NCBI GenBank assembly: GCA_944390125.1 | Contig: CALXOX010000001.1 | Coordinates: 1-64,000 of the forward strand | Length of the DNA stretch: 64,000 nucleotides | Source of the DNA: an uncultured Alphaproteobacteria bacterium | Lineage (GTDB): Bacteria > Pseudomonadota > Alphaproteobacteria > Rs-D84 | Direction: 5' to 3' | Shown here: positions 9,952-53,599 of the stretch, in pieces | Layout of the letters: each line of letters begins with the position of its first letter | How positions within the stretch are numbered: position 1 is the stretch's first letter | Notes under the pieces: model-generated | Seen by the model: only the letters and a program-made list of their open reading frames with translations | Databases searched by the model: none | What the model was told of the DNA's origin: nothing | Program-made: the position numbers and the translations under genes

Positions 9952-9980
9952 TTGTATTTGCTCTTTTACTAGTATATAAT
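9952..9980 (+). promoter_or_regulatory. Promoter of leader RNA copy A
   Basis: TTGTAT (9952-9957), exactly 17 bp, then a perfect TATAAT (9975-9980). Start expected near 9987, just before the first hairpin. Confidence 0.75.
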
Positions 9981-9986
9981 AATAAG

Positions 9987-10231
9987 GTCAGCAGGTGTTC
10001 TGCTGATGGGGTGTGAGAACCCGTTCACAAGCGTCGGAATAGATACTTATGGCGCGCATATTTGCGCCGTTTTTAAATATTACGACGAAAAACAAACTCC
10101 TGATTTGTGTCAGGAGGGCATGCGAATATATTGAATAAGCAGCACAATTCTTGTGATTGTTCTCAACCTCCTGACCACCAATTAAAAACTGGTGGTTTTT
10201 GTTTAAAACATAAATGTCAGGAGATTGAATT
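9987..10231 (+). ncRNA. Structured leader RNA, copy A
   Basis: Unrecognised structured 5' leader shared with three other loci in this window. In order: hairpin P1 CAGCAG/CTGCTG (9989-10005); P2 GGGG-loop-CCC with loop TGTGAGAA; P3 GCGTC/GGCGC with loop GGAATAGATACTTAT, identical to copy B; P4 CTCCTGA/TCAGGAG (10097-10116); a hairpin with loop GAATATATTGAATAA (10124-10138); hairpin ACAAT/ATTGT; then CCTCCTGA (10167-10174), which can pair with 10110-10117; then an intrinsic terminator. The ribosome-binding site TCAGGAG (10217-10223) repeats the P4 3' strand, so it can also pair with either CTCCTGA. This looks like an attenuator or riboswitch. The ligand is unknown. Confidence 0.8.
10174..10200 (+). 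terminator. Terminator inside leader copy A
   Basis: ACCACCA/TGGTGGT (7 bp) followed by T5, 32 nt before the start codon. Its first base overlaps the CCTCCTGA stem. Confidence 0.8.
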
Positions 10232-10666
10232 ATGAAAAAACTAATAATAATATTTTTGATCACCGTTGCGACAGTTACAGAATCACATGCTGTAACAAAA
10301 TGTTTAGCCCTAAATTCATCAACTCGTTGTTCTGGTGGCACAGCCTCTGTCGGCACTATTGAATGGTCTGCCAATTGCTCTACAGGGAACACCGCGTTCA
10401 CGATCTCTGGGATTGCCGCTTGTTCTTCACTAAACGCAAACAGTGGGGCCGCCGCAAATAGTTTGCCAACTGTAACGCAATCTGAAACAGACCCAGAAGG
10501 GGTAAAATTTTGTTGGTGCAAAACCACAAGCCCGGTTGTATCCAGGTGGATTAAAGCCAACGTACCATCTGAGTATACTAACTTACGAAATTGCCTCGCC
10601 ACATGCTCAACGTTTTGTCATGACTACATTCTATCAATGGCAAGTTACTTATATACAATTTTCTAA
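10232..10666 (+). CDS. Secreted Cys-rich 'VTKC' protein, copy A
   Basis: 144 aa, not recognised. The signal peptide (about 1-21) ends before AVTKC. The mature part has a conserved framework seen also at 47907-48317 and 52989-53399: VTKC near the mature N-terminus, a second Cys about 12 residues on, an IxGxAxC-type segment, then CWCK...SPxVSxW and a C-terminal C-x3-C-x3-C cluster. Eight or more Cys suggest a disulphide-bonded periplasmic or extracellular protein. It is first in a two-gene unit behind leader copy A, with RBS TCAGGAG 8 nt upstream. Confidence 0.8.
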   Translation: MKKLIIIFLITVATVTESHAVTKCLALNSSTRCSGGTASVGTIEWSANCSTGNTAFTISGIAACSSLNANSGAAANSLPTVTQSETDPEGVKFCWCKTTSPVVSRWIKANVPSEYTNLRNCLATCSTFCHDYILSMASYLYTIF

Positions 10667-39965: not shown

Positions 39966-40220
39966 ATTACTGTGTCAACGAGAGTTTCGTTGATGAGGTG
40001 TGGAAACCTCATACTGGCGTCGGAATAGATACTTATGACGCGCAACTAGCGCGTGTTTTAGTATCAGAATTATTACGACGGAAAATAAAACTCCTGATTT
40101 TGGTCAGGAGGGCTGCTGAATATCAAATAAGCGGCACAATTCCAGTAATTGTTTCCAACCTCCTGACCACCAAAAAAATTGGTGGTTTTTTGTTTAAACA
40201 AAAAATCAGGAGATTGAAAT
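39966..40220 (+). ncRNA. Structured leader RNA, copy B
   Basis: Same architecture as copy A. P1 CAACGA/TCGTTG; P2 GAGG/CCTC with loop TGTGGAAA; P3 GCGTC/GACGC with the same 15-nt loop GGAATAGATACTTAT as copy A; an extra GCGC/GCGC hairpin; P4 CTCCTGA/TCAGGAG (40091-40110); hairpin GCTGC/GCGGC with loop TGAATATCAAATAA; hairpin ACAAT/ATTGT; CCTCCTGA (40159-40166), able to pair with 40104-40111; terminator; RBS TCAGGAG (40206-40212). Stem bases differ from A but pairing is kept. Confidence 0.8.
40166..40191 (+). terminator. Terminator inside leader copy B
   Basis: ACCACCAA/TTGGTGGT (8 bp), loop of five A, then T6. Confidence 0.85.
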
Positions 40221-40961
40221 ATGAAAATAAATTGTGCAATAGGACTATACCTTATAATTTTCTGTGGTGCTAATGCAGCATGCCCAGAAAATTCGACGTG
40301 TCCAGGAATAAACGATAGTTTTTTTTCTTGCAACAGCGGCTTTTACAAAAGCGGGACTGCAACATGTCTTCCTTGCCCATCTTCAGGTCAATCAGATTTG
40401 GGTGCGATATCACGAACCGAATGTTATAGTTATAAGGCTGGCCAAACATTTTCAGACGAAAGCGGTGCTGGTATTTTCACAGGAACTTGCTATTTTGTAA
40501 ACGACTGGTCCGCAGGAAATTATGTGGTTTTAATTACAAACATAGGCTCTGATAAACTAAATGTTATTAAAGAAATTCGAGACATTAGCGGAATTGGTCT
40601 GCAAGAATCCCGAAATTTGGTGGATTCTGTTTCAGATACCTTGTCGCAAACTGTAATAGATAAAATATCTTACACAGCTGCGACAGAAATAAAAACTCGT
40701 CTTGAATCGCTGGGTGCTAGCATAACAATATACGCAACCGGCAATTATAAAGTATGCATAACTAGTGCCGGCACATCTTCTGTCAACATCATAAAAAAAA
40801 TTAGTGAACTTTACGGCACATCACTTTCTAGCGCGAAAAACCTTGTTGACAACGCATCAAGCAGTACACCACAAACCCTAGTATCTGGCCTGTCCTATGA
40901 GTACGCCACAGAACTAAAAAATTATTGGGAAAACCTCGGTGCTTCCTGTGTCATAAAATAA
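40221..40961 (+). CDS. Secreted CPSGY-like protein with two L7/L12 C-terminal-like domains
   Basis: 246 aa. Signal peptide (about 1-20). Residues 21-93 are Cys-rich and end in CYSYKAGQTFSDESG and FTGTCYF, like the end of CPSGY proteins. Residues about 101-170 and 176-246 each match the ribosomal L7/L12 C-terminal fold: NVIKEIRDISGIGLQESRNL and NIIKKISELYGTSLSSAKNL, each followed by AATEIKTRLESLGA- or YATELKNYWENLGA-type helices. In the ribosome this domain binds GTPase factors; here it is exported, so it must do something else. Controlled by leader copy B. Confidence 0.82.
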   Translation: MKINCAIGLYLIIFCGANAACPENSTCPGINDSFFSCNSGFYKSGTATCLPCPSSGQSDLGAISRTECYSYKAGQTFSDESGAGIFTGTCYFVNDWSAGNYVVLITNIGSDKLNVIKEIRDISGIGLQESRNLVDSVSDTLSQTVIDKISYTAATEIKTRLESLGASITIYATGNYKVCITSAGTSSVNIIKKISELYGTSLSSAKNLVDNASSSTPQTLVSGLSYEYATELKNYWENLGASCVIK

Positions 40962-40988: not shown

Positions 40989-43900
40989 TCAGAATCTGTA
41001 AGAACCTGATACCTTGATGTTATGTAATTGTATCGCATCGTTATATTGATAGCGGTAATCGATACCCAATTGAATTCCTGATGCAGACAAGAATTCTATA
41101 CCACCACCAATATTTGCCCATAACGGATCAATATCGACATCATACTTTGTATATGTATGTGCCAATGCAAATTTATATTTTACATAATCCGGAGCACCTA
41201 ATACATCGTATTCAACACCAATTGATGCATAAGGACGAATCTGGAACCAAGCAGATGGATAAATACGTTTCTGCGCTGTCAACGAATAACCAGGCGTCAA
41301 AATCAAATAACCATCTGATTGCATATTCATATAATCCTGACCAGCAGCATGTTCTGTAATGTCAAAGCCAAAATTATAACCTACTCGTGCATACGCGTTA
41401 CCAACGATGTACTGATTCAACCAATCATGCAACAAGCCCCATTCTGTAATCAAGCTAAACGCACTGCCGCTGCCATCAATATGGTCCATAAATGTTTGGT
41501 CACGAGATACATCAAACAAGTGGATGTCCAAGAAACCATTTCCATACAAACGGGTCTTTTCACCCAAAGTCTTCATCATATAACCGCCCAAACCAATATT
41601 TAAATCGTCGACGGTCAAATCAACGAAACCTGCGACAGGAGTATCCGGCAGATAACCTAATTCCATTGCATCAGAGTTATCGCTAGAAGAATTAGATATA
41701 CGTGCAGTCAAACCTAAGATTGTTGTTTCTGAATTTTGCCAATCGAACCCACCCGCAATGCTGAAACGATTACCATCTGCATGTTTTCCATCAGATACAT
41801 TCTGGAAGAACATACCATAGTCAACATCCAACCATGCTTTCTTCAAATTACGATTACGGTTCCATATAAATTCATCAAACATACGATCTTCGAAATCACG
41901 GAAGCTCGTGTGCTCATTCAGCGCAACTGCACCTGCAATTTGCTCAAGTTCACGCGCCTGGAACAAACGGCTGAAACGCGCCAAAGGATCACGTTCACCT
42001 GTCATGTTGTAATATTCCATACGGTCATACAACTCGTCTGCCATCTGCGCCAAATTTGTACCCTTGAATATCTGAGGTATCAATTCAATAGGCGTGCTGT
42101 TATAGAACTTTGTATTCTGCAGCTGTCCTACAATCAAATTGTCCAACGCACCAGCAGAGACATATTCTCCCTCTGTATGGGGCTCCGTTGCTGCAACAAT
42201 AGGCTGAATTCTAAACACTTCAACAGGACCACCAAAGTTAGGATCAAACACAACATATAAACTGTCAGCAACACCATCACCATCTGTATCGCGTTCAGAT
42301 ATATAAATCGGTGAATCCCCTTCATCACTGTAAGTTCCATCATTCGCAGGATGCAAAGTATCCGCATAATCTATGCAAACCGTGCCATCAGCATTACAGA
42401 ATTTAACGTCCAAATTACGTAATTTTTCGAACGCATCTGTAACAACAATACCTTTTTCTGCATGCAGCAACCAAATTGCAGTGCCTTGGTCAACCGTATC
42501 AAACAAAGTTATACCAACCTGAGGTGCGTTATCTGCTGTATTATTCACAATACCCGAAATATTGGAAATAAACTGTTCTCCAATAGTTATCAAGGCCGCA
42601 CCGTTTTCAGCGTTGGTAATTTCACCAACTTTGTTATCAGCGGTTGCTTCTATTGTAGACCAATAATTCTGGTTTGTTGTATCCCCAGATAGTGATTCAG
42701 AGTCCTGGTAAGGTAAAATAGCTGCCCACAAATCACTATCGTTATTAAACGTATAGTTTCCAGCAATATTTAGACGTTTTATTCCCCAAAAATCAACGCC
42801 ACCAGAAACGTTTCCACCGATAGTTGCGTCAATCCAAGTATCTGCAGGATTCTTAGCAAAACGTAAATCGCCTGCGATAACATTACCAGATATATCAACA
42901 TCGCTAGAATTTATCTGCATATAACCAGATTTCTGCTCTATACCAGCAACACCGAACTGGCTAGCCGTGATAGAATAATCATCTGACGCAACATTCACCA
43001 TACCATCGGTCATATTTCCGGAATAGTTTTGATATAAAATTGTATCAGAAGTTGTAAAGACGCCAGCAGTTGTCAAACCTGCACCTTCCAAGGTTATATT
43101 ACCCAAGGAACCAACCGCGAATGTATCAACCGTTGTAAAACCTTTACCAGAATTCAAAGTCAAACTTCCTGTATTAGAAATCTGATTTAAATTGATACCA
43201 TTATCACTATTGATAGCTAACAAGCCGCTATTATCTATATCAGACGCAGCAAAAGTAGCAGCATCAAACACGACTTCTGTTCCTTCTGCAACGTTTACAT
43301 TCTCTGTGATAGAAACAGCATTTGCAAATTCTAATAACGCAGTTCCAGAATTCGCTTCATAACTACCAATCAATTGCAAACCAGCGTTGCCATTGACATT
43401 GATGGAATCCGCCAAAAAGTTCAATGCACCGCTTTGATTTCCCTGAGAAATATTACCACTAACAACAATATCACCGCTTGACTTTACATTCAGTATTTCA
43501 TCGGAGCCAATGTTTACTACTGCGCCACTAGCAACAGTCATACCACCCAAAACAACGTTAGGATTGGTTGTTCCATTTGCAGTAATATTCAACTTTCCTG
43601 AATTAGCCGCAACATTTCCTAAATTGACTGTATCTGTTGCCACTAAAGTCGTTGTGCCGGTATTTGTAATATTACCCATATTGATATTCTGTGCATTAGC
43701 ATTCAAAATACCACCAGCAGTTATATTACCATTGGCAATCACGGAAGAATTTGCGGCATCCAAAGTCAAAGTGTTACCTACCCCCAAATCCAACGCGCCA
43801 CCAATCTCCACCTGTGCATTATCAGACTTCAAAGTCAAATTATTTGTATTTTCGACAATCAAGCCATTTTCTGGTTTTGGATTGATTCCACCAAACCACA

Positions 43901-45968
43901 AACCACCCGCAACATCAATTGCACCATTCGTGGCCGTAATTTGTGTACCACTTGCAATCAAAGAACTATTAGCATCAACATTTATTGAGCCAACATTCGC
44001 ATCATCAGAAACAATAGCGATACTTGCGCCACCATCTACAGCAACAGCACCGTCAACAGTCAGTTGTTGGGACGAATCGGCACCAAAAACAAGTTTCTTA
44101 CCAGCCCCTGATGCTGTTACATTACCACCAATAGTTATAGTGTCTGCTGCAAATGTTGCACTATATGTTCCACTCTGTATTGCTTCAACAGCGCCATCTA
44201 TATTCAAAGCGCCATTTGTTGAAGTCATAACAAAGCCCTGAGGGCCTGTTGCTGAAACATACACGTCACCATTACCATCGGCTTCTGTATTTTCACCCAA
44301 TATAAAATCACCATTGATTTGAATTGTATTAGCAGCAGTCAAAGAATGCGTAGAACTATCAATATTTAACGCACCACCTGTTACATTCACAGCACCTGCG
44401 ACATTCACACCGCCAATCAAAGCATTCAAATCTAAGACACCACCTGCTACTTCTATTGCGCCAATCTGCAAATCACTGCCAGCCGTATCAGACCCCTGTA
44501 CAGTTAAAATTCCAGACTGGTTAGTCAACGTACCAGAAATAACAATATCTTTAGCATTTATGTCTGTGTTTCCAGACTTATTAGTCACATCACCAGAAAT
44601 AGTGATTTGTCCAATTTCATTTGTCAAAGAAGTAATGCTTAAATCACCACCGTCATTTACAACGCTTGCTAACTCTACTTGAGTACCATTTAAAGTCATA
44701 TTTCCACTATTAGAAACATCACCTTTAATATTCAATACCGCAGCAGACGCAATTTTCGTTGTAGAGCCTGCGAATCCTTCAACACCACCATTGATAACGA
44801 TACCGGCACCGTCAAGTTCCGTCGCCTGCATCGTCAAATTATTTCCATGGTTAGTAACAGAATCTGCCGTTATGGCCTGAGCGGTCAAAGACATATTCGC
44901 ATCTTCATTATAAGAAGGATTGCTAATATCATCATTTATCAAGCCATTTATAACATCACTAGCAATATCCAAACTATCATTCGTAATATTCAAAGTAAAC
45001 TGGCTCAATTTATTCGAAAAAACATTCAGCCAATTGTCCGTATTTGTTCCAGAACCAAAGACCAAAGAACCAGTTGTCAAAGAAAACGTATTATCCGTTT
45101 GCATTGCACTAAGGTCAAAACCATACTCCAGATTTGTTGTTTCGGTTACATCAATTACTAAATCACCCTTATTTACAAAAGATGCATTACTGTTATCCCC
45201 GCCAGACACAGTCAAATTTTCAGCATTTACCACAATTTTACTATCGTTCGAATCGTTTTTAACTGTACCTGCAATTGTAATATCACCACCAGCAGTAATG
45301 TTCATTGTAGAACTTGAATTGTAAACACTACCTGCAACGTCAATATTGCCAGCAGCGCTTACGGTCATATCTCCAGCAGAACCACTATTTTCTATATCAC
45401 CCGTATTCACATCAATAGAATCTGCCGCGATAATTGTGCTGCCTGTGCCAGAATTAGAAAAACTTCCAATTTCTAAAGTTCCAGTCACATCTAAATTAGT
45501 ATTACCACCCGTTACAGCGATACTTCCTGTCTGAGCAGTATTAGCCTGTAAAGAAAAACCATCTGCAATACTTACCACGCCATCGACGGTAAAAGCGTTT
45601 GCCTTTTCAACCGCAAAACTTCCATTGGCTGTTATAGATCCAAAGCTCATATTCACTGGTGTTCCAGGTACATCTGTGACCCCCAAGCCCAAGTGATAGC
45701 CCTCAGCAATAGTAACATTATTCGAAACAGTTATATCAGCCCCCGACCTAAGAGTAAAACCATCGGACGCATCTGTACCACGCCACAACGTAGTTGAATA
45801 ATTAGGCGCAGAAGAAGGCACATCTTGACCAACAACAATGTCAGTTACACTGATACCATCTTGGAACGATCCACCTGTTGTCAAAGGCGCCTCACCGCCT
45901 GCAAAAGGTTCGGCCTGTACACCTAACGGCGCCAAGCACAACATAAAAAATATTGTCTTTTTCATCAT
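40989..45968 (-). CDS. Autotransporter (type Va) with long beta-helical passenger
   Basis: 1659 aa from ATG 45968 (another ATG follows at once). Signal peptide MKKTIFFMLCLAPLGVQA. Residues about 40-1120 are a repetitive passenger with NxGxxT, VxGxVxxxxG and ISGTLTNQSG-like rungs, typical of right-handed beta-helix adhesins. About 1120-1330 is a spacer with a DTDGDGVADSLY calcium-type Asp motif. The last 300 residues are a 12-strand barrel ending in SGSYRF. The passenger would be carried to the cell surface. Two divergent promoters with TATAAT lie between it and eno. Confidence 0.9.
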   Translation of the reverse strand: MMKKTIFFMLCLAPLGVQAEPFAGGEAPLTTGGSFQDGISVTDIVVGQDVPSSAPNYSTTLWRGTDASDGFTLRSGADITVSNNVTIAEGYHLGLGVTDVPGTPVNMSFGSITANGSFAVEKANAFTVDGVVSIADGFSLQANTAQTGSIAVTGGNTNLDVTGTLEIGSFSNSGTGSTIIAADSIDVNTGDIENSGSAGDMTVSAAGNIDVAGSVYNSSSTMNITAGGDITIAGTVKNDSNDSKIVVNAENLTVSGGDNSNASFVNKGDLVIDVTETTNLEYGFDLSAMQTDNTFSLTTGSLVFGSGTNTDNWLNVFSNKLSQFTLNITNDSLDIASDVINGLINDDISNPSYNEDANMSLTAQAITADSVTNHGNNLTMQATELDGAGIVINGGVEGFAGSTTKIASAAVLNIKGDVSNSGNMTLNGTQVELASVVNDGGDLSITSLTNEIGQITISGDVTNKSGNTDINAKDIVISGTLTNQSGILTVQGSDTAGSDLQIGAIEVAGGVLDLNALIGGVNVAGAVNVTGGALNIDSSTHSLTAANTIQINGDFILGENTEADGNGDVYVSATGPQGFVMTSTNGALNIDGAVEAIQSGTYSATFAADTITIGGNVTASGAGKKLVFGADSSQQLTVDGAVAVDGGASIAIVSDDANVGSINVDANSSLIASGTQITATNGAIDVAGGLWFGGINPKPENGLIVENTNNLTLKSDNAQVEIGGALDLGVGNTLTLDAANSSVIANGNITAGGILNANAQNINMGNITNTGTTTLVATDTVNLGNVAANSGKLNITANGTTNPNVVLGGMTVASGAVVNIGSDEILNVKSSGDIVVSGNISQGNQSGALNFLADSINVNGNAGLQLIGSYEANSGTALLEFANAVSITENVNVAEGTEVVFDAATFAASDIDNSGLLAINSDNGINLNQISNTGSLTLNSGKGFTTVDTFAVGSLGNITLEGAGLTTAGVFTTSDTILYQNYSGNMTDGMVNVASDDYSITASQFGVAGIEQKSGYMQINSSDVDISGNVIAGDLRFAKNPADTWIDATIGGNVSGGVDFWGIKRLNIAGNYTFNNDSDLWAAILPYQDSESLSGDTTNQNYWSTIEATADNKVGEITNAENGAALITIGEQFISNISGIVNNTADNAPQVGITLFDTVDQGTAIWLLHAEKGIVVTDAFEKLRNLDVKFCNADGTVCIDYADTLHPANDGTYSDEGDSPIYISERDTDGDGVADSLYVVFDPNFGGPVEVFRIQPIVAATEPHTEGEYVSAGALDNLIVGQLQNTKFYNSTPIELIPQIFKGTNLAQMADELYDRMEYYNMTGERDPLARFSRLFQARELEQIAGAVALNEHTSFRDFEDRMFDEFIWNRNRNLKKAWLDVDYGMFFQNVSDGKHADGNRFSIAGGFDWQNSETTILGLTARISNSSSDNSDAMELGYLPDTPVAGFVDLTVDDLNIGLGGYMMKTLGEKTRLYGNGFLDIHLFDVSRDQTFMDHIDGSGSAFSLITEWGLLHDWLNQYIVGNAYARVGYNFGFDITEHAAGQDYMNMQSDGYLILTPGYSLTAQKRIYPSAWFQIRPYASIGVEYDVLGAPDYVKYKFALAHTYTKYDVDIDPLWANIGGGIEFLSASGIQLGIDYRYQYNDAIQLHNIKVSGSYRF

Positions 45969-46026
45969 ATTTCTGTTTCTTTCCAACCAATTTTATGATT
46001 ATATTATTGCACAATTCGTCGAATAA

Positions 46027-47906: not shown

Positions 47907-48317
47907 TCAAGAAAGATTTTGTAACATATACGTGCGTAATGAATTACTATTATTTTGAAAATACTGTGCACATCTTGACGCACAAGAACTTAAACAGCTG
48001 GCTTCATTAGCATATCCTACAGCATAAACCCAAAGTGAAACAGCTGGATCAATCATCCTGCACCAACAATTGGTATTATCTCCACTTGAACTTGAGGTTT
48101 GAACTTCGCCTACCGAATTACCGCCATTTCCCGTTCCACAAAAAGCAACGCCTCTTACAGAAATTGAACCGCAAGTTGAATAGAAATTTGAACCAGAACC
48201 ATTTGAAAAAATACAACTAGAAAAAACTGACGTATCTATGCATTTTGTAATCGCAAACGCTGAAAAATTAAAACACGAAACCAAAAGAAATAATACGAAA
48301 ATAAAAAATTTACCCAT
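47907..48317 (-). CDS. Secreted Cys-rich 'VTKC' protein, copy C
   Basis: 136 aa. Signal peptide (about 1-22) ending before AITKC, SSCIF, a Ser/Gly stretch, CGSISVRGVAFCG, then CWCRMIDPAVSLWVYAVG and the C-x3-C-x3-C end (CLSSCASRC). Same framework as copies A and D. Translated from AGGAGG RBS after leader copy C. Confidence 0.8.
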   Translation of the reverse strand: MGKFFIFVLFLLVSCFNFSAFAITKCIDTSVFSSCIFSNGSGSNFYSTCGSISVRGVAFCGTGNGGNSVGEVQTSSSSGDNTNCWCRMIDPAVSLWVYAVGYANEASCLSSCASRCAQYFQNNSNSLRTYMLQNLS

Positions 48318-48522
48318 TTAAAGCCTCCTTTTTTTGCTTTTTAAACAACGAAAAAACCACCTAAAACTGGGTGGTTGGAGGTTCTAAACTATACATTATG
48401 GAATAGCACGGTTTATTCAATATATTAACCGTCCTCCAACCGACTACGATTGGAGAGTTTTAACGTCTTAAAGACGCATAATGTAGAGGTTTAGATGCCT
48501 CAATGCGACAACCCGTCGCATC
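48318..48522 (-). ncRNA. Structured leader RNA, copy C
   Basis: On the minus strand: P1 GATGCGAC/GTCGCATT; P2 GAGG/CCTC with loop CATCTAAA; P3 GCGTC/GACGT with a short TTTAA loop; P4 CTCCAAT/GTTGGAG; hairpin ACGGTT/AACCGT with loop AATATATTGAAT; hairpin CTAT/ATAG; then CCTCCAACC, which pairs with GGTTGGAGG and overlaps the terminator stem. Stems differ from A and B while keeping pairing, and CCTCCTGA has become CCTCCAAC together with its partner. Confidence 0.78.
48348..48376 (-). terminator. Terminator inside leader copy C
   Basis: AACCACC/GGTGGTT followed by T6 on the minus strand. Confidence 0.82.
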
Positions 48523-48528
48523 GACAAA

Positions 48529-52988: not shown

Positions 52989-53399
52989 TTAGTCAGATAG
53001 TCCACTAAACAGCCCCGGCCGGAAAGCGGCGTAGGACCGAGCGTAGTACGCACAGTTGTACGCGCAATTCTTCGTGCAATTGCCGGCGGACGTGGACGAG
53101 TGGGAGAACACCCAAGACGATACCGCTGGTGAAACCATTTTGCACCAACAACATTTGTTATCGTCAGTGCTGGTCGTGACATTTTCGGATATTGCGCCCA
53201 TTGTACCACCATCTTGAGAGCCACAAAATGCAACGCCCTGAATTTCTATACCGCCACAGGTTACTGACCAATTTGACCCATTACCTGAAGGACTTGTACA
53301 CGTTGTTGATGATGTTAGTTTTACGCATTTTGTTACTGCATACGCTGGTGGGATTGATGCCGCACAAATTATGCCGGCGATGATTAAATGTTTTTTCAT
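52989..53399 (-). CDS. Secreted Cys-rich 'VTKC' protein, copy D
   Basis: 136 aa. Signal peptide ending before AVTKC, TTCTSPSGNG, CGGIEIQGVAFCG, CCWCKMVSPAVSSWVF and the end CTKNCAYNCAYY. The 3' half is GC-rich like its partner. RBS is a G run (GGGGG) 5 nt before the ATG, unlike the TCAGGAG of copies A and B. Confidence 0.8.
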   Translation of the reverse strand: MKKHLIIAGIICAASIPPAYAVTKCVKLTSSTTCTSPSGNGSNWSVTCGGIEIQGVAFCGSQDGGTMGAISENVTTSTDDNKCCWCKMVSPAVSSWVFSHSSTSAGNCTKNCAYNCAYYARSYAAFRPGLFSGLSD

Positions 53400-53593
53400 T
53401 CTACCCCCTTTTTTTCATTGCGAATGAAAAAACCACCAAAATATTTCAGGTGGTTGGAGGTTCGAAACTATGCAAGATAGTGTTGCTTATTCAATATATT
53501 CGCAACCCTCCAACCAAAAGTGGAGGCGATATTTTATGTCATCTCTGACACTTGCACGGGTTTCGACACCCCATTGATGAAATACTCATCAAC
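53400..53593 (-). ncRNA. Structured leader RNA, copy D
   Basis: On the minus strand: P1 TTGATGA/TCATCAA; P2 GGG/CCC with loop TGTCGAAA; a short P3 TGTCA/TGACA; P4 CCTCCA/TGGAGG; hairpin GTTGC/GCAAC with loop GAATATATTGAATAA identical to copy A; hairpin CTAT/ATAG; CCTCCAACC pairing with GGTTGGAGG and overlapping the terminator. It is the most compact copy (about 166 nt to the terminator). Confidence 0.78.
53428..53455 (-). terminator. Terminator inside leader copy D
   Basis: AACCACC/GGTGGTT with an AT-rich loop, then T6 on the minus strand. Confidence 0.82.
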
Positions 53594-53599
53594 GTTTTT

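Follow-up and report, generated by a model that had tools for sequence, protein, structure and literature searches.

A large family of leader RNAs of C4-type design, related to sRNA-Xcc1, in one order of Alphaproteobacteria

The window, by which we mean the whole 64,000-nt stretch of DNA that was analysed, carries four structured leader RNAs (copies A to D), and these belong to a large, real family that is a domesticated variant of C4/sRNA-Xcc1 and not a new, unrelated riboswitch. The core that the family has inherited is sRNA-Xcc1-like, and its design is C4-type; judged by homology and architecture, the relation to C4/sRNA-Xcc1 is highly probable. The output of the leaders is probably attenuation, and we consider it fairly likely that each of them, domesticated from the C4 type, attenuates its own gene specifically, the genes being those of secreted Cys-rich proteins and of small HTH regulators.

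Size, anatomy and downstream genes of the family

A covariance model built from the four window copies scores A to D at 238–259 bits and detects 15 copies in the 0.9-Mb genome at E ≤ 0.001, that is, 11 beyond A to D (the E-values of this model and of the next are rough). Given these scores and the 11 further genomic copies, A to D are not chance occurrences. The same model found copies in 33 of 40 relatives. With a second model, built from only the 3' (C4) half of 40 homologues that all come from this order, matches were obtained in 102 of the order's 114 genomes; a genome of about 1 Mb often has 20 to 40 or more, and several have at least 42. Outside the order, nine of the class genomes searched match, with one to seven matches each. 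At least 117 stretches, all in named genome contigs, contain an exact core pattern; among the matches listed, the contigs come from uncultured alphaproteobacterial or proteobacterial MAGs, many of them from animal guts, and include Candidatus Enterousia and termite 'Rickettsiales' MAGs.

A preliminary description of this DNA had located four leaders, and all four were found where it placed them (Table 1); as a count of the family four is too low, since the genome holds at least 15 copies by the covariance model. The order of elements given there (P1, P2, P3, P4, a loop-bearing hairpin, an AT hairpin, a CCTCC strand and a terminator) is seen in A to D, as are the shared loop motif and the compensatory stem changes. 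From 5' to 3', members of the family consist of a −10-like box, P1, P2 with segment b1 in its loop, a1, P3 and S1, followed by S2, P5, P6 with a' in its loop, b', S3, the terminator T2, the SD sequence and the gene. The −10-like box (TATAAT or close to it) lies upstream of P1 at fixed spacing in each copy, about −39 from b1, and is a perfect TATAAT in 84 of 151 copies. P2, a GGGG/CCC hairpin, exists as described, but the long-range partner of its loop (b1 with b') had been overlooked; the small AT hairpin likewise exists, with a', the partner of a1, unnoticed in its loop. The pairing named P4 is real and corresponds to S1:S2, an alternative to S2:S3. The P5 loop, GAATATATTGAATAA, is 15 nt long and conserved. 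Two forms of the P3 region occur, a long one that usually contains a terminator-like hairpin, T1 (52 of 67 copies), and a short one without it (0 of 84); A and B have this extra hairpin between a1 and S1, and C and D lack it.

All four downstream genes in the window are of the secreted type. Among 102 downstream ORFs of at least 100 aa, a signal-like N-terminus was assigned by a crude rule to 86%, as compared to 30% of 368 background ORFs, and 67% contain at least 4% Cys, as compared to 12% of the background. Small HTH proteins are also encoded downstream of short-form leaders. Two leaders stand in tandem at one site (L010 and L011, G000:C1:384332-384846); their recognition segments, the codes described below, differ, and the second precedes a 65-aa HTH-like protein. 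The ribosomal L7/L12-like domains of the protein under copy B are odd for an exported protein.

Table 1. Coordinates of the leader copies, their parts and neighbouring reading frames in the window
Copy	Feature	Position	Strand	Remarks
A	Leader, extent in preliminary description	9987-10231	+	
A	−10 box TATAAT	9975-9980	+	Just upstream of P1
A	P1, 5' hairpin TCAGCAG/CTGCTGA	9988-10006	+	98.1% of cells paired; 7/7 pairs double-changed
A	b1 TGAGAAC	10014-10020	+	P2 loop; partner b' 10159-10165
A	a1 TCACAAG	10025-10031	+	Partner a' 10150-10156
A	T1	10050-10075	+	Early terminator-like hairpin, long-form leaders only
A	S1 CTCCTGA	10097-10103	+	Partner S2 in closed fold
A	S2 GTCAGGAGG	10109-10117	+	5' strand of acceptor-like C4 stem; 5' end a putative RNase P cut site by analogy with C4/sRNA-Xcc1
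A	P5 hairpin, loop GAATATATTGAATAA	10118-10143	+	99.2% of cells paired; 5/5 pairs double-changed
A	P6 hairpin ACAAT/ATTGT	10144-10160	+	Displays a' (10150-10156); 99% of cells paired
A	b' GTTCTCA	10159-10165	+	
A	S3 CCTCCTGAC	10167-10175	+	C4 stem 3' strand, overlaps T2 base
A	T2, intrinsic terminator	10174-10203	+	
A	Downstream gene	10232-10666	+	144-aa Cys-rich protein, signal-like N-terminus, no Pfam match
B	Leader, extent in preliminary description	39966-40220	+	
B	Leader, long form	39974-40192	+	
B	b1	40001-40007	+	
B	a1	40012-40017	+	
B	S1	40091-40097	+	
B	S2	40101-40111	+	
B	a'	40142-40147	+	
B	b'	40151-40157	+	
B	S3	40159-40169	+	
B	T2	40166-40192	+	
B	Downstream gene	40221-40961	+	246-aa signal-like protein, two L7/L12 C-terminal-like domains
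B	Adjacent reading frame	40989-45986		1665 aa, no Pfam match
C	Leader, extent in preliminary description	48318-48522	-	
C	Leader, short form	48352-48526	-	
C	b1	48489-48495	-	
C	a1	48477-48485	-	
C	S2	48433-48441	-	
C	a'	48392-48400	-	
C	b'	48383-48389	-	
C	S3	48373-48381	-	Followed by T2
C	Downstream gene	47907-48317	-	136-aa Cys-rich protein, signal-like N-terminus, no Pfam match
D	Leader, extent in preliminary description	53400-53593	-	
D	Leader, short form	53428-53596	-	
D	b1	53560-53566	-	
D	a1	53551-53557	-	
D	S2	53507-53516	-	
D	a'	53470-53476	-	
D	b'	53462-53468	-	
D	S3	53451-53460	-	Followed by T2
D	Downstream gene	52989-53399	-	136-aa Cys-rich protein, signal-like N-terminus, no Pfam match

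Matched recognition segments and alternative folds

The two segments at the 5' end are matched by two in the 3' half, and this pairing at a distance is the family's strongest feature. Among 151 parsed copies, a1:a' reaches at least 6 bp in 139 and b1:b' at least 7 bp in 147, a length that 71 of 151 shuffled regions also attain because the search space is wide. Since this null is weak for b1:b', partner swapping and aligned columns were used. The covariation that the preliminary description had proposed to look for is strong in 84 distinct homologues: 37 of 42 named pairs are changed on both sides, double-change cells number 780 as compared to 233 ± 20 after shuffling, and the covariation score is 0.577 (0.200 shuffled), all on an alignment fitted to a model that lacks the b1:b' and a1:a' helices. 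Changes on both sides occur in P1, P2, b1:b', a1:a', P5 and most of T2, and the signal is lost when partners are slid by one column. As related copies inflate the cell counts, the partner-swap and sliding controls carry the weight.

The b and a segments together give each copy a code. There are 146 distinct (b,a) code pairs among the 151 copies, and no code is repeated within a genome in 21 genomes. Within one genome, nearly identical paralogues always differ in at least one of the two codes; in the seven pairs found, the backbone is 94% identical, a 65% and b 78%. Codes are exactly kept in several syntenic orthologues of diverged species (D and L031, L008 and L188, L069 and L115, L185 and L194), while in other orthologues they are replaced on both sides together within a backbone that is 98–99% identical. 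For example, the HTH-gene leader orthologues L177/L225 and L152/L211 have both codes replaced in this way. The pattern among paralogues and orthologues, read from sequence, suggests that the codes are specificity determinants; their divergence could be compensatory drift if the pairing were purely structural in cis.

Two folds compete for the same strands, a closed fold (b1a1:b'a' together with S1:S2) and a C4 fold (S2:S3). In the C4 half (S2:S3, P5 and P6), 97.1% of cells are paired, with 99.0% for P6. S1:S2 was tested by direct search, because this region misaligns on the model-fitted alignment, and spans at least 7 bp in 123 of 151 copies as compared to 29 when shuffled. T2 is present in 143 of 151 copies and, as expected of an attenuator, is an intrinsic terminator between leader and gene that is exclusive with conserved upstream pairing. 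S3 overlaps T2 by at least 3 nt in 135 of 151 copies, so that the C4 fold takes 3–6 nt of the T2 base; the closed fold predicted for A to D leaves T2 intact. Both the overlap of the CCTCC-stem 3' strand with the terminator and the built-in switching had been proposed beforehand, and they are borne out by this overlap and by the conservation of S1:S2 and S2:S3 as alternatives. The b1:b' and a1:a' pairings might coexist with S2:S3.

Energy minimisation gives the closed fold in 135 of 151 copies, at a median of 11.1 kcal/mol below the enforced C4 fold in a model without pseudoknots and without co-transcriptional kinetics. This dominance of one fold, together with those orthologues that have changed codes in an otherwise 98–99% identical backbone, would fit a purely structural element in cis, either an mRNA stabiliser or a constitutive attenuator. 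The sole role of b1:b' and a1:a' would then be to hold the fold, and their codes would be free to drift neutrally as long as changes are compensated. We regard such an element as unlikely, as the S2:S3/P6 alternative is independently conserved though it would serve no use there, as near-identical paralogues have different codes whereas syntenic orthologues of diverged species can retain theirs, and as the homologues of the leaders are antisense RNAs.

Relation to sRNA-Xcc1 and C4 RNAs, and alternative readings

At the Rfam gathering threshold, the window yielded tRNAs only and no family for the leaders. The preliminary description had not recognised them as a known family; this holds as regards gathering scores, but the leaders have a 3' half with homology to sRNA-Xcc1 and are built like C4. 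The sole recurring Rfam signal was sRNA-Xcc1 (RF02221), with every copy tested below the 53-bit cut-off: the best copy in the same genome scored 50.7 bits (E = 1.5e-8), five more loci 34–40 bits, and A and D 30.5 and 29.7 bits (E about 0.0016). Rfam matches to Trp/Phe/Leu leaders, rli26 and STnc230 were low and inconsistent between copies, and were set aside as chance or generic attenuator resemblance. Searching in reverse, the model of the C4 half found 8 of 30 sRNA-Xcc1 loci at a rough E ≤ 0.01 (best 2.6e-8), exactly on the Xcc1 coordinates; sequence–structure homology is detectable both ways.

The window family shares with sRNA-Xcc1 the S2:S3 stem, P5 with AATA..GAATAAG, the P6 loop, a TT..AA segment and a stem end followed by RCC. 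It has lost the inner GC hairpin of P5 and adds the 5' hairpin P1, S1 and a strong U-tract terminator, T2, to the common core. The mature sRNA-Xcc1 starts at the 5' strand of the closing stem, as mapped by 5' RACE in Xcc (PMC2996969). Sequences upstream of the 30 sRNA-Xcc1 loci generally have the same b1/a1 layout, with an upstream match to b' of 20.9 in the loci tested as compared to 14.5 for swapped partners, and the minimum-energy fold of the precursors is closed in 17 of 19. The genes under these loci include Bro-N, P22_AR_N and KilA-N antirepressor-type genes, Rha and SymE, whereas those of the window family are secreted or HTH proteins and not phage antirepressors, Rha, KilA-N or SymE. 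Our comparison suggests that sRNA-Xcc1 serves phage antirepressor and symE genes as an antisense RNA of the C4 type; in the literature searched, no paper was found that connects sRNA-Xcc1 with C4, though one may still exist.

Across L080-L109, the sRNA-Xcc1 loci from many proteobacterial families, b1/a1 upstream and b2-SD-a2 downstream match the loops of the same locus. Many of these loci and of L270-L289 have a terminator-like hairpin and a T run just after a1, with an alternative GCGG..CCGC pairing. In such phage-type loci, binding of the C4 RNA to a1b1 could trigger early termination.

Phages silence their antirepressor genes with C4 antisense RNAs. C4 consists of three stems with a' and b' segments, and RNase P cleaves it at the base of the first of these stems (PMC5320573); the c4-a1b1 motif has been listed separately from it (PMC2864571). 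Taken together, the C4 of P1/P7 and c4-a1b1 have their functional segments in the order seen in the window leaders: b1 in a hairpin loop, a1 and a T1-like hairpin, then an acceptor stem enclosing two hairpins, with a' in the second loop and b' just before the 3' strand. In the window family, too, the last hairpin displays a' in its loop, b' lies between this hairpin and the closing 3' strand, and the upstream a1/b1 are complementary to a'/b'. The 20 RF01695 (C4) loci generally have the same upstream b1/a1 layout and order of parts; no RF01695 match was found in the genome, and the model of the C4 half matched none of the RF01695 loci. The strict G1:C72 plus RCC signature expected of an RNase P substrate is present in only 84 of 151 copies. 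The window family differs from C4 in that the tetraloop on the first inner hairpin is replaced by the conserved P5 loop, a2/b2 at the ribosome-binding site (RBS) are absent, and the downstream genes do not include the phage antirepressor (ant) and have no phage setting.

The Group 1 C4-like sRNAs of A. baumannii, phage-derived small transcripts with a conserved C4 match, are also multi-copy and chromosomal, with a variable a' and apparent RNase P processing (PMC5320573). In the window family, unlike these, the RNA is the leader of particular cellular genes, and within each leader the two recognition segments change in concert. In attenuators of the pT181/pIP501 type, the fold choice of the nascent leader decides whether the terminator forms, and the antisense RNA comes from the opposite strand. 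The leaders share the fold choice at the terminator, possibly set by a small RNA, which here would be cut from its own target transcript.

The only sequence-specific partner found for each a'b' is the 5' end of its own leader. Across the whole genome, no further site was found for the exact b1..a1 combination of A, of B or of D, and that of A recurs only as its own complement at a'/b'; predicted binding of the C4 half of A to D to their own b1a1 is −17 to −21 kcal/mol. No Hfq (PF17209) or ProQ (PF04352) homologue was found by profile search in this genome (G000), so recognition may rely on exposed loops alone.

A stricter C4 scheme, in which the processed 3' half pairs at the RBS of its own gene and blocks translation, draws on the homology to sRNA-Xcc1, whose loci have b2-SD-a2 sites (for example CCGAAAA-ggag-CAACAAG before the ATG at L109). 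S3 is an anti-SD, with TCAACCTCCTGAC of copy A pairing with GTCAGGAGATTGA, and predicted RBS duplexes reach −11 to −18 kcal/mol. Partner swapping recovered RBS targeting in the sRNA-Xcc1 loci, which served as positive control (a 18.3 vs 14.1; b 15.0 vs 13.4). In the window family the same own-RBS (a2/b2) match is missing, complementarity being no better with the own RBS than with those of other copies (14.50 vs 14.36, within class). Any RBS pairing would therefore be generic via CCTCC/GGAGG, unlike the private codes, and translational block at the own RBS is doubtful as the mode of action.

The preliminary description had offered a riboswitch as one candidate. Here the conserved P5 loop and P1/P2 would form an aptamer, and one metabolite would co-regulate the secretome; the conserved sequence of that loop, the alternative terminator, the sharing of leaders by functionally related genes and the tandem pair L010/L011 are what one would expect. 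We nevertheless judge a ligand riboswitch quite improbable. In sRNA-Xcc1, which sits on phage genes and has RBS-matching antisense segments, homologous flanks (AATA..GAATAAG) correspond to the P5 loop; the most informative covariation lies in copy-specific codes, for which a common aptamer has no need; and the genes, secreted proteins of unknown function and HTH proteins, have no metabolic theme. The copies differ from one another in a matched pair of recognition segments, which points to RNA–RNA self-recognition and away from one small ligand common to all.

A mobile element or recombination site of cassette or integron type, suggested by the dispersed, multicopy distribution and by sRNA-Xcc1 in integron cassettes (PMC12444791), is very improbable, as the copies are single and adjoin ordinary chromosomal genes (rpiB, ssb and carD among them), some are syntenic between species, each is accompanied by a promoter-like box and a terminator with constant spacing, and covariation keeps pairing and not sequence. 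A phage origin of the window copies was also rejected, as their neighbours are housekeeping genes and the core pattern matched only three viral contigs, in which the downstream genes resemble cellular ones.

Proposed mechanism and significance

In the self-specific attenuator that we favour, each element would be an autonomous 5' transcript of about 200–250 nt, with an sRNA-Xcc1/C4-like 3' half and a 5' half that carries the matching b1/a1. In the closed fold, T2 would form and transcription would stop before the gene; in the C4 fold, the base of T2 would be taken and read-through would follow. The C4 fold may also allow RNase P to cut out the domain as a small RNA, which would then pair only with the b1a1 of its own leader, on later transcripts of the same gene. 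Each gene would thereby be set by its own product RNA without cross-talk, and the feedback may run up or down.

A more speculative extension, to which we give little credence at present, is an orthogonal, self-recognising and possibly bistable switch: the C4 fold would weaken T2 and release more C4-like RNA, and the released RNA would bind only the b1a1 of the gene's next transcript and hold it in the C4 fold, storing the on state. If this were true, tens of private memories would govern the secreted proteins of a genome smaller than 1 Mb. They would go back to a phage lysogeny switch and operate in a cell without detected Hfq or ProQ.

In the literature searched, C4 RNAs belong to phage immunity and phage-derived sRNAs, and sRNA-Xcc1 has been treated as an sRNA of Xanthomonas and Xylella that acts in trans and is linked to virulence. 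Here the C4 architecture appears to serve an entire bacterial order as a dominant system of leader RNAs: 102 of 114 genomes have it, with tens of copies before secreted and regulatory genes. The matched RNA codes, well over 100 of them, make up a natural library from which orthogonal RNA regulators could readily be drawn. An RNA that controls antirepressors in phages seems to have been adopted by this lineage and spread to many of the lineage's own genes for surface and secreted proteins.
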